Shown one piece after another: positions 57,594-61,096 of a DNA stretch of 64,000 bases (positions are counted from its first letter, which is position 1; the number at the start of each line of letters is the position of its first letter). The position numbers and the translations under genes are program-made. The notes under the pieces are model-generated. The model had not been told where the DNA came from and ran no database searches. It was given only the letters and a program-made list of their open reading frames with translations. The DNA is from Rhizobium johnstonii 3841. Lineage in GTDB: Bacteria > Pseudomonadota > Alphaproteobacteria > Rhizobiales > Rhizobiaceae. Where the stretch lies: contig NC_008380.1 of assembly GCF_000009265.1 (NCBI RefSeq), forward strand, positions 2,051,501 to 2,115,500, read 5' to 3'.

Positions 57594-58592
57594 ATGGACA
57601 GTCTCAACCGACGCGATTTCCTGAAGACCACAGCTCTCGCTGGAACGGCTCTTGCTGCGCCCGCCTTCGTCCGCACGGCCGCTGCCCGCACGACGACGAT
57701 CACGATCGCCTCGCTGCTCGGCGACGACAAGCCGGAGACGATGATCTGGGTGAAGATCGGCGAACTGGTCGAAGCGAAGCTTCCCGGCCAGTTCAAGTTC
57801 AATATCGTCAGGAACGGTGCGCTCGGCGGCGAGAAGGAAGTGGCCGAAGGCGTGCGCCTCGGCTCCATCCAGGCCAGCCTTTCAACGGTCTCGTCGCTCT
57901 CCGGCTGGGCGCCGGAACTGCAGATCCTCGATCTGCCCTTCCTCTTCCGCGATGCCGACCATGTCCGCAGGACCGTTGGCGGCGATGTCGGCGCCGATCT
58001 CAAGCAGAAACTGCAGGCGCAGAATTTCGTCGTCGGCGATTTCATCAATTACGGCGCCCGCCATCTCCTGACCAAGGAACCGGTGACGCGGCCGGAGCAG
58101 CTCAAGGGCAAGCGCATTCGTGTCATCCAGAGCCCGCTGCACACAAAGCTCTGGAGCGCATTCGGCACGACGCCGATCGGCATTCCGATCACCGAGACCT
58201 ATAATGCGCTTGCAACCGGCGTCGCCGACGCGATGGACCTGACCAAGTCGGCCTATGCCGGCTTCAAGCTCTATGAGGTCGTGCCTGACATGACCGAGAC
58301 CGGTCACATTTGGGCATCCGGCGTCATCTATTATGCCTCAACCTTCTGGACCGGCCTCAATGACGAGCAGAAGGCGGTGTTCCAGCAGGCTTCCAGCGAA
58401 GGGGCCACCTATTTCAACCAGCTAATCGTTGACGACGAGTCCAAATCCGTCGAGACGGCGCTCGGCCATGGCGGAAAGCTCTTGAAGCCGGAAGCCTTCG
58501 ACGAATGGCAGAAGGGCGCCCAGGGTGTGTGGGACGATTTCGCGCCTGTTGTCGGCGGCATCGACAGGATCAAATCGGTCCAGGCCGCCTGA
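57594..58592 (+). CDS. TRAP transporter substrate-binding protein (DctP)
   Basis: A 332-residue periplasmic binding protein with a twin-arginine-like signal (NRRDFLKTTALAGTALAAPA, residues 5-24). The conserved arginine that binds the carboxylate is in LKGKRIRVIQSPLH near residue 180, followed by ALATGVADAMDLTKSAYAG. It serves the DctQM gene 13 bases upstream. A hairpin terminator after it has been split off from anything downstream by an IS1182-type insertion. Ligand unknown. Confidence 0.88.
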   Translation: MDSLNRRDFLKTTALAGTALAAPAFVRTAAARTTTITIASLLGDDKPETMIWVKIGELVEAKLPGQFKFNIVRNGALGGEKEVAEGVRLGSIQASLSTVSSLSGWAPELQILDLPFLFRDADHVRRTVGGDVGADLKQKLQAQNFVVGDFINYGARHLLTKEPVTRPEQLKGKRIRVIQSPLHTKLWSAFGTTPIGIPITETYNALATGVADAMDLTKSAYAGFKLYEVVPDMTETGHIWASGVIYYASTFWTGLNDEQKAVFQQASSEGATYFNQLIVDDESKSVETALGHGGKLLKPEAFDEWQKGAQGVWDDFAPVVGGIDRIKSVQAA

Positions 58593-58626
58593 GCGAGAGG
58601 CAGGGCGGTCGCCTGCAGATTTTGAA

Positions 58627-58653
58627 GAGACCGATGGAAAAACCATCGGTCTC
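58627..58653 (+). terminator. Terminator hairpin of the TRAP genes and left target-site copy of the IS
   Basis: Two 11-base arms (GAGACCGATGG and CCATCGGTCTC) surround AAAAA. An exact copy lies at 60179-60205 on the far side of the insertion. The left copy joins the IS end at 58654. Confidence 0.75.
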
Positions 58654-60178
58654 AGACTGCTGACAAACCCCTGGCACCGTCCAGGGGTTTGTGATTCATT
58701 GGGACATGTTGAAGAAACCTGCCCCCGCCCAGACGGCTCTTGAGATGGTGACGCTCGACAGCCTGGTGCCAAAGGATCACTTGCTTCGCAAGATCGATGC
58801 GGTGATCGACTTTTCCTTCATCCATGGCCGGGTTGCGGGGCTTTATTGCGCCGACAACGGCCGCCCGCCGCTTGATCCGACCTTGATGTTCAAGGCGCTG
58901 TTCCTTGGCTACCTGTTCGGCATCCGCTCGGAGCGTCAGCTGGTGCGCGAGATCGAGGTCAACGTCGCCTATCGCTGGTTTCTGCAGATGAAGCTGACGG
59001 ATGGTGTGTTTGACGCCTCGACGCTGTCGCAGAACCGCCGCCGGCGCTTCAACGACACCTCGGTTGCACAGGACATCTTTGATCATATCGTTGAGCAGGC
59101 GATCCGTCATGGCCTGGTGGATGGCACGGTGCTTTATACGGATTCAACGCATCTGAAGGCGAATGCCAACAAGGGCAAATATGATCTTGCGATGATCGAA
59201 AAGTCGCGTTCCGATTACTGGGCCGACCTCGACCGAGCGATTGAGGCCGAGCGGGCACTCCACGGCCAGAAGCCCTTGAAGGAAAAAGAGCGCGAGGCGG
59301 AGGTGAAGGAAACCAAGGTGTCGCGCACCGATCCCGACAGCGGCTACATGGTGCGCGACGGCAAGCCGAAGGGCTTCTTCTACCTCGATCACCGCACGGT
59401 GGATGGCAAGCTGGCGATCATCACCGACACCCATGTCACGCCCGCCAATGTGCATGACAGTATCGTCTATCTCCACCGGCTGGACCGGCAGCGTGAGCGG
59501 TTCGGCTTCGAGGTCGGTGCTGTCGGGCTGGATGCCGGCTATGCGACATCCGGCATCGCCAAGGGTCTTGAAGACCGCACCATCCTCGGTGTCACCGGCT
59601 ATCGTAATCCGACCCCGCCCAGAGCCGGCATGATGCGCAAGTCGAAATTCGGCTATGAGCCCGAGACAGACGGTTACCGCTGCCCCGAAGGCCAACTGCT
59701 CGCCTATGCCACCACCGACCGCAACGGTTATCGCCACTATCGTTCGGATCCTGCCATCTGCCGCGATTGTCCGTTGTTGGCCTCCTGCACCAATAACGCC
59801 ACGGCGACACGTACCATCACCCGCCATGTCTGGGCCGATGCCCGCCAGCGCACCGATGCCAACCGCCTGACCCCTTGGGGCAAGGCAATCTACAAGCGGC
59901 GAAAGGAGACGGTCGAACGTTCCTTCGCCGATGCCAAGCAGCTTCACGGGCATCGCTATGCCCGCTTCCGAAGTCTCACCCGCGTCTCATGCCAGTGCCT
60001 GTTGGCTGCGGCCGCCCAAAACATCAAGAAGATCGCAATGGCGCTCACCAAAGCGCCAAAACCAGCCATGGCGTGAGCCGATACATCCTTCTTCACCTCC
60101 GCCAAAACAATGCCGCCAAAAAAATCCAATCCGCAAAAACAAAACCCGCCGAAAAATCGACGGGTTTGTCAGCGGTCT
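58654..60178 (+). mobile_element. IS1182-family insertion sequence, complete
   Basis: 1525 bp bounded by 17-bp imperfect inverted repeats: AGACTGCTGACAAACCC on the left and the complement of AGACCGCTGACAAACCC on the right (one mismatch). Each end also carries its own hairpin just inside: ACAAACCCCTGG/CCAGGGGTTTGT (58662-58692) and AAACCCG(C/T)CGA-type (60143-60168). Exact 27-bp copies of a palindromic terminator flank it. It contains one intact transposase gene, so it may still be active. Confidence 0.85.
58706..60076 (+). CDS. IS1182 family transposase
   Basis: A 456-residue DDE transposase, apparently intact. The N-terminal domain is MLKKPAPAQTALEMVTLDSL and the DDE acids lie in YTDSTHLKAN, VGLDAGYATSGI and ETVERSFADAKQ. 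The CPEG ... CRDCPLLASC zinc-like segment lies before the last motif. Start at ATG 58706, with an in-frame GTG at 58691 possible. Codon use resembles that of its neighbours. Confidence 0.88.
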   Translation: MLKKPAPAQTALEMVTLDSLVPKDHLLRKIDAVIDFSFIHGRVAGLYCADNGRPPLDPTLMFKALFLGYLFGIRSERQLVREIEVNVAYRWFLQMKLTDGVFDASTLSQNRRRRFNDTSVAQDIFDHIVEQAIRHGLVDGTVLYTDSTHLKANANKGKYDLAMIEKSRSDYWADLDRAIEAERALHGQKPLKEKEREAEVKETKVSRTDPDSGYMVRDGKPKGFFYLDHRTVDGKLAIITDTHVTPANVHDSIVYLHRLDRQRERFGFEVGAVGLDAGYATSGIAKGLEDRTILGVTGYRNPTPPRAGMMRKSKFGYEPETDGYRCPEGQLLAYATTDRNGYRHYRSDPAICRDCPLLASCTNNATATRTITRHVWADARQRTDANRLTPWGKAIYKRRKETVERSFADAKQLHGHRYARFRSLTRVSCQCLLAAAAQNIKKIAMALTKAPKPAMA

Positions 60179-60205
60179 GAGACCGATGGAAAAACCATCG
60201 GTCTC
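60179..60205. repeat. Right target-site copy of the palindromic terminator
   Basis: An exact repeat of 58627-58653 (11-base arms, AAAAA centre). It is not needed by any gene on this side, so it is best explained as the duplicated target of the insertion. Confidence 0.75.
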
Positions 60206-60436
60206 TTCATCGCGCGCACTTGCCGGAAAAATAATGCCGGAGCAGGCCGGAAATCGAAAGAGCATGCCTTCGGTGATCGTGGTATATAACTTACTTAAAA
60301 TCCTGGAATGGGAAGTTTTTACCTTCGGCCGGTGCGATCCTGTTGACCGCAATGTCGCGACCGCTTCCGGCGGACGGATCCCATGGCCTCGATTTGAGAT
60401 AAACAAAATTGAACACAAGGCTTTGGAGGGCCGACC

Positions 60437-61096
60437 ATGAGCTTACGCATCAACGATATTGCCCCCGATTTTACCGCCGACACCACGCAGGGACCGATCA
60501 GCTTCCATGAGTGGATCGGCAGCGGCTGGGCCGTCCTGTTCTCGCATCCGAAGAATTTCACGCCGGTTTGCACGACCGAGCTCGGCGCCATGGCCGGCCT
60601 GGCCGCGGAATTTTCCAAGCGTGGCGCCAAGGTCATCGGCATCTCCGTCGATCCTGTGGAAAGCCATGCCAAGTGGAAGAACGACATCAAAACCGCCACC
60701 GGCTTCGACGTCGAATATCCGCTGATCGGTGACAAGGACCTCAAGGTCGCCAAGCTCTACGACATGCTGCCGGCCGGCGCCGGCGAGAGCTCGGAAGGCC
60801 GCACGCCTGCCGACAACGCCACCGTGCGTTCGGTCTTCATCATCGGTCCGGATAAGAAGATCAAGCTGATCCTGACCTATCCGATGACTACCGGTCGCAA
60901 TTTCAATGAGATCCTGCGCGCCATCGATTCCATCCAGCTGACGGCCAAGCACCAGGTGGCCACACCGGCGAACTGGAACCAGGGCGAGGACGTCATCATC
61001 ACCGCCGCGGTTTCCAACGAAGACGCAATCACGCGTTTCGGCTCCTTCGATACGGTTCTGCCCTATCTCAGGAAGACCAAGCAGCCGACGGCCTGA
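60437..61096 (+). CDS. Peroxiredoxin (1-Cys, Prx6-like)
   Basis: A 219-residue thiol peroxidase that reduces hydrogen peroxide and organic peroxides. The active site PVCTTE has the peroxidatic cysteine at residue 45. The Prx6-type C-terminal region (SIQLTAKHQVATPANWNQGE) is present, and a standard resolving cysteine is not visible. GGAGGGCC precedes the ATG. It stands alone after the IS element and ends in a strong terminator. Confidence 0.93.
   Translation: MSLRINDIAPDFTADTTQGPISFHEWIGSGWAVLFSHPKNFTPVCTTELGAMAGLAAEFSKRGAKVIGISVDPVESHAKWKNDIKTATGFDVEYPLIGDKDLKVAKLYDMLPAGAGESSEGRTPADNATVRSVFIIGPDKKIKLILTYPMTTGRNFNEILRAIDSIQLTAKHQVATPANWNQGEDVIITAAVSNEDAITRFGSFDTVLPYLRKTKQPTA

Follow-up and report, generated by a model that had tools for sequence, protein, structure and literature searches.

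Duplication of whole target hairpins by an IS1182 lineage that probably selects its targets by structure

In Rhizobium johnstonii 3841, a 1527-bp insertion sequence (IS) of the IS1182 family separates a dctP-type gene from a gene for a 1-Cys peroxiredoxin, and one and the same hairpin stands at either end of it. Judged from sequence comparisons, the resident hairpin is the target of the insertion and its duplication is the outcome. The element's lineage probably recognizes its hairpin targets by their structure, with insertion taking place at the stem foot. Strand transfer at the feet of a cruciform, followed by gap repair, would then duplicate the target. We also lean, if only slightly, towards a broader claim: that a widespread lineage (in Pseudomonadota and Bacillota) has no fixed repeat length, that the target structure sets a stagger of 16–35 bp and that each insertion regenerates its target.

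The element and its duplicated hairpin

The window, the whole stretch of 64,000 nucleotides that we analyzed, carries the dctP-type gene, which encodes a TRAP solute-binding protein, upstream of the hairpin (57594..58592, plus strand; Pfam DctP, 2.9e-57). The 1-Cys peroxiredoxin gene lies downstream of it (60437..61096, plus strand; Pfam AhpC-TSA and 1-cysPrx_C). In between, the sequence GAGACCGATGGAAAAACCATCGGTCTC occurs exactly at 58627–58653 and again at 60179–60205. The original prediction had claimed an exact duplicate palindrome on both sides of the IS, and direct sequence matching bears this out. There is no further occurrence of GAGACCGATGGAAAAACCATCGGTCTC in the 7.75 Mb genome, allowing up to three mismatches. 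A repeated intergenic element (REP- or RIME-like) was considered and rejected because the window hairpin is unique in the genome, and Rfam gives no match at gathering score between 58500 and 60450.

The window copy taken alone reads equally well with a repeat of 25 or 27 bp; other copies settled the matter. We compared a boundary set of 20 copies with both IS ends. The comparison places the tips of the IS at a first base C and a last base G (CAGACTG...GGTCTG), the best reading in most of these copies. Hence the IS in the window runs from 58653 to 60179 on the plus strand and the repeat is AGACCGATGGAAAAACCATCGGTCT, 25 bp long. Its left copy is at 58628..58652 and its right copy at 60180..60204 (no strand assigned). 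The duplication first described, 27 bp around an element of 1525 bp, therefore stands, but with its sizes corrected to 25 and 1527 bp. Both flanks are present for 19 copies of the boundary set (L015 is without a right flank). An exact palindromic repeat is 18 nt or longer in 16 of them and 15 nt long in L035, while L004 and L036 have a different hairpin on the left than on the right.

Host DNA outside the duplication continues the stem. From pairing and direct reading, the outer part is TGAAG on the left (58623..58627) and CTTCA on the right (60205..60209), both without an assigned strand. The stem before insertion would exceed the length of the repeat, because the outer host TGAA and TTCA pair as well. 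Folded as a single strand, the left hairpin copy reaches –13.3 kcal/mol (z = –7.45), a value equaled by none of 200 shuffles. The hairpin had been taken for a terminator, which our results do not support: neither strand has a T-run (the tails are TCTTCATCG and TCTTCAAAA), and the target hairpin is absent from the list of the terminator scan.

The terminal inverted repeats of the IS, both read directly, are CAGACTGCTGACAAACC on the left (58653..58669, plus strand) and, as reverse complement, CAGACCGCTGACAAACC on the right (60163..60179, plus strand). They are identical in 16 of 17 bases. The left tip is common to distant relatives; CAGACTG or a near-identical tip is present in Bacillota relatives too. 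Each end also contains a hairpin of its own. The left one (58663..58692, plus strand; z = –4.81) has a 12-bp stem and begins 10 nt from the tip. The right one (60142..60167, plus strand; z = –4.79 for the fragment) is terminator-like in the minus-strand scan. In most copies of the survey described below, the IS end is a tip of about 10–13 nt followed by a hairpin. A stem score of at least 7 is reached by 68 of 89 left ends and 83 of 89 right ends, against 7 of 534 shuffled ends. The stems in 23 copies differ in sequence, with the pairing mostly kept. These hairpins, which the original prediction had proposed as possible blocks to transcription, may insulate the transposase gene or take part in the recognition of the ends.

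A genome-wide search finds the window IS as a single complete copy in its own genome. The only other match in this genome (G000) is a degraded stretch of about 122 bp at C5:324726-324847 with 73% identity to the transposase gene. Its protein match to the transposase has an internal stop.

The transposase gene (58706..60076, plus strand) encodes 456 amino acids from an ATG, or 461 from an upstream in-frame GTG at 58691. The protein scores 485.6 bits against the NCBIfam model NF033551 (transpos_IS1182), above the cut-off of 270, and so confirms the IS1182-type assignment made earlier. Its Pfam domains are DDE_Tnp_1_6, DUF772 and DDE_Tnp_1. An AlphaFold2 model built from 19 sequences has a mean pLDDT of 87.9. 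Residues D146, D276 and E404 are invariant in 19 sequences, and their place on predicted strands and a predicted helix leads us to infer that they are the catalytic triad. In Foldseek, piggyBac is the top match of the model and Tn5 the next, with low TM-scores for both. VIA-align gives the transposase of Tn5 (IS4 family) as the best match (Z 15.2, rmsd 5.6 over 276 residues, 13% identity). Tn5 makes a fixed 9-bp target repeat, whereas the repeats of the window lineage span 16–35 bp.

Hairpin targets in related copies and at sites without the element

We gathered transposase loci from whole genomes, plasmids and named genome contigs (best 80 of 571 matches). Matches or flanks that were too short (55), loci in which no IS ends could be recognized (57) and duplicates (8) were excluded. 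What remains is a non-redundant sample of 89 complete copies, with both flanks, from Pseudomonadota and Bacillota. Copies L004 and L087 are outside the 89, presumably because their transposase match is too short for the filter. We counted a hairpin at a stem score of at least 6 and the same hairpin on both sides at a repeat score of at least 12.

A hairpin lies directly against both IS ends in 79 of the 89 copies, against one end in six and against neither in four. The expectation that all insertions lie in inverted repeats thus holds for most copies but not for all. Per IS end, a hairpin is found at 164 of 178 ends, compared to 58 of 1386 (4.2%) control points in the same flanks. The same hairpin flanks both ends in 65 copies, as expected if the element duplicates whole stem-loops; in 14 copies the two hairpins differ. 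When left and right flanks are re-paired at random, 0–1 repeats (score of at least 12) arise in 20 trials, while 68 of 89 copies have one: the 65 together with L035, L191 and L291. As written, the 68 repeats are 68 distinct sequences. The targets seem to be picked by shape, not by sequence, as far as the compared flanks tell.

Hosts of copies with the same hairpin on both sides include Rhizobium, Mesorhizobium, Sphingomonas, Paraburkholderia, Litchfieldella, Alkalihalophilus, Paenibacillus and Enterococcus. Seven more loci of the lineage, with sufficient flank and IS ends not placed, show palindromic repeats in three cases and none in four. In a close group of seven annotated plasmid loci (L084–L090) the hairpins are intergenic in all seven, read by eye and from plasmid gene tables that are incomplete. 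An open frame runs across the site in 21 of the 65 copies; such frames are common in GC-rich DNA anyway.

Repeat and hairpin match in length. For the 65 copies, the repeat is 16–35 bp long (mean 22.0, sd 3.4), and its length correlates with that of the hairpin (r = 0.95). Our hairpin finder is anchored at most 3 nt from the IS end, but nothing ties the distal stem foot to the distal end of the repeat. With fixed IS ends, 62 copies can be measured; in 58 of them the hairpin sits exactly in the middle of the repeat, without a single base of difference between the two sides, if the 0–3 unpaired bases at the foot are included. The first base of the repeat is A in 51 of 62 copies and the last base is T in 50 of 62. 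Hence, an A-T pair usually closes the foot of the stem, and the join falls immediately beyond it.

Most targets have a T-rich tail, defined as at least five T in the nine bases after the hairpin. The tail is present on both strands in 37 of 65 copies, on one strand in 25 and on neither in three, the window copy among them. A tail on at least one strand is thus found at 62 of 65 targets, compared to 80 of 904 control points (either side). One-sided tails show no bias with respect to IS orientation (12 against 13). The usual target therefore resembles an intrinsic terminator, and because three targets have no tail, the tail is dispensable.

How is this behavior distributed over the IS1182 family? 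We built a tree of 118 transposases with a quick method and a midpoint root, and it comes with a long-branch warning. A branch with support 100 separates 82 rows from 36 loci of another IS1182 lineage. The side with 82 rows holds all 43 rows with the same hairpin and all 12 rows with different hairpins. Transposases of the other lineage are about 30% identical to the window transposase and fall under the same NCBIfam model (411.4 bits for its locus L113). A palindromic direct repeat was found at none of 32 loci of that lineage, where the IS ends are undelimited and another use of hairpins is possible. ISCaa15, an IS1182 member, is reported to have 4-bp repeats in two copies (PMC3196728). Hence, hairpin duplication is not a property of the whole family. 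A pneumococcal island that holds a truncated ISSmi2 (IS1182 family) is reported to be flanked by a 7-bp repeat.

Loci without the IS already contain the hairpin. Searching with the right flank of the window yields matches in 143 of 148 genomes of the genus and 29 related loci besides the window's own. Fifteen of these related loci carry the hairpin once and no IS; four of the fifteen (L058, L059, L061 and L068) have a mismatch in the stem. Because species that are related but free of the element have a single hairpin in the interval from dctP to the peroxiredoxin gene, the hairpin represents the target rather than a part of the IS. In more distant relatives, the position after dctP is taken by other stems, for example GGCCGAT...ATCGGCC in L072, which suggests that the hairpin there is partly conserved as a structure. 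A few relatives, such as L081 and L083, show no clear hairpin at this place.

We searched for such counterparts with the flanks of the window copy and of L084, L085, L003, L087, L088, L086, L006 and L010; L089 shares the site of L087. Besides the window, seven insertions (L084, L085, L003, L087, L089, L088 and L010) have an IS-free counterpart with a single hairpin. The total is eight insertions, a count that leaves out L086 and L006. The original prediction would have failed had empty sites lacked the hairpin; for these eight insertions the hairpin is there, once. Relative to the duplicated hairpin, the IS-free sites show one change in the case of L084 and two in that of L003; in the window's counterparts, it is the left arm that has changes. 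For these three the counterparts are not identical to the repeat, so the exact sequence before insertion is not read from them.

In Aminobacter, one hairpin is occupied in two strains by IS copies in opposite orientations (L087 and L089). These two copies are 98.6% identical (1.4% difference), while L087 is 99.5% identical to L088, which sits at another site. Because the IS of L087 is closer to L088 than to L089, we read L087 and L089 as separate insertions; the sequences suggest two independent events at one target.

The arms of the window hairpin are fully complementary over 15 bp, while relatives with the hairpin have at most 9 bp of unbroken pairing (23 of 29 relatives compared). The window hairpin owes its extra pairs to the left arm, whose changes fit the conserved right arm in the manner of quasi-palindrome correction. 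The repeat of L084 has one pair more than its two counterparts; in L003 the difference goes in the opposite direction.

Mechanism and known systems

The stagger with which DDE transposases join target DNA is generally assumed to be fixed. A repeat that follows the target in length can be understood if the target is a cruciform. From the sequences, we infer cruciform extrusion with strand transfer at both 5' feet of the stem. Under negative supercoiling the palindrome would extrude as a cruciform, and extrusion would juxtapose the two 5' stem feet at the four-way junction. There, a DDE transposase with ordinary active-site spacing could attach both 3' ends of the IS, one to each foot. Along the linear sequence the two joints would be separated by 16–35 nt, so that gap repair would copy, and thereby duplicate, the entire stem-loop. 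Since cruciform feet would lie side by side at any stem length, a DDE enzyme could produce repeats of variable length. The hairpin would be retained on each side of the IS and would be reusable as a target. Where the target is a terminator, termination should persist on both sides.

Could the hairpins instead belong to the IS and travel with it? Their position right at its ends and their palindromic form would suit terminal inverted repeats. Yet 68 copies have 68 different hairpin sequences and IS-free loci already hold the hairpin, which refutes this idea and leaves it next to no probability. Nearly as improbable is a stem-loop replacement of the IS1272 type, in which the target hairpin is removed and no repeat is left. 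Elements of that type share the family name and the hairpin preference (PMC5678879, PMC4923244). However, 65 of the 89 copies in our lineage retain the hairpin and have it twice, so replacement is refuted as its main outcome. An ordinary short-stagger insertion, with the hairpin duplicated later by repair or by recombination between palindromes, would fit the three copies with repeats of 7–8 bp. But such a later event would be needed at most copies, and with exact hairpin boundaries (58 of 62); we consider it very unlikely.

Alternatively, what guides the transposase to intrinsic terminators may be paused RNA polymerase or the hairpin of the RNA, with no involvement of a DNA cruciform. The abundance of T-rich tails at the targets (62 of 65, compared to 80 of 904 control points) speaks for it. 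On the other hand, three targets, the one in the window included, are without such a tail, and the orientation of the IS is unlinked to the side of the tail (12 versus 13). Terminators may also just be the commonest good intergenic palindromes, and guidance by termination does not by itself account for the match between repeat and hairpin. We regard this alternative as unlikely, although it deserves more weight than the others, and prefer target selection through a DNA cruciform.

Hairpin targeting in IS1182 is already known. Both IS1272 reports (PMC5678879 and PMC4923244) cite Siguier 2015 for some IS1182 members that target palindromes. IS1272 and TnSha1 of staphylococci resemble the window lineage in having an IS1182-family DDE transposase and inverted-repeat targets, many of them terminators, without a consensus. 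The major form of IS1272 is 1945 bp long, with a 548-aa transposase and 16-bp inverted repeats; on insertion, IS1272 removes or substitutes the target stem-loop, and no repeat results (Wan 2017, PMC5678879). For TnSha1/IS1272, Furi 2016 (PMC4923244) describes hairpin targets, of which 5 of 7 are confirmed terminators, target deletion, and both orientations of TnSha1 at one target. In IS1272 the hairpin is thus lost without a repeat, whereas in the window lineage it is retained and duplicated. The outcome in the window lineage is that of a hypothetical pathway drawn for IS1272 (Wan et al., PMC5678879).

The IS110 and IS4 elements that target REP sequences (ISPpu9, ISPpu10 and ISRm22) insert in palindromic intergenic DNA as well. 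PMC1525189 gives 2-bp repeats for ISPpu9 and ISPpu10, and 6-bp repeats at the palindrome axis for ISRm22. Their targets come from a repeated REP family, whereas the window hairpin is unique in its genome. ISRm22 inserts at the axis of the palindrome, while the window lineage inserts at the feet of the stem.

Among the literature matches listed, no title or abstract concerns IS1182 elements that duplicate an entire stem-loop. Among these listed matches, what appears to be undescribed is the duplicating outcome, the match between repeat and hairpin, and the spread of both over a lineage. If our reading is true, then the hypothetical pathway of IS1272 is realized naturally, and a repeat length set by the target would amount to a natural record, across whole genomes, of DNA that forms cruciforms or hairpins in the living cell. 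The extrusion of short palindromes in vivo, an old question, would become directly testable. It would also mean that a mobile element lands between genes and leaves hairpins, mostly terminator-like ones, on both sides. For annotation, long palindromic repeats beside such IS1182 elements would best be taken for target duplications and not for parts of the IS.

Copies that depart from the pattern

Short non-palindromic repeats at other copies would have contradicted the original prediction. While most duplications are palindromic (65 of 89), three of the 89 copies have a repeat of 7–8 bp: 8 bp in L235, and 7 bp in L281 and L293, both of the latter read by eye. The three repeats lie at the 3' arm of a hairpin or beside a T-run. 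Hence a short stagger occurs as well, and these copies possibly represent a second mode of insertion.

Inter-copy recombination or decay may explain many of the copies with differing hairpins or without two clear ones. Recombination between copies has been proposed for ISRm22 (PMC1525189) and could also have produced differing hairpins here. We checked one pair, L004 and L037, for exchanged flanks and found no correspondence. In L243, the left and right hairpins are alike in most of the stem and differ in the loop, for which plain duplication is no explanation.

Some copies are unusual in their surroundings. L276 sits within a sequence that reads as the transposase gene of another copy. The flanks of L271 are inverted repeats of each other, and in L291 five additional bases separate the hairpin from the IS. 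L203 (genome G655, contig C1, transposase at 502936-504276) has the order IS-hairpin-IS: its right hairpin copy directly abuts the left end of a second IS copy.

Four copies in genome G562 (L190, L196, L199 and L201) have one in-frame TGA each in the transposase match. An inactive form may have spread in this genome, or the TGA may be read through.
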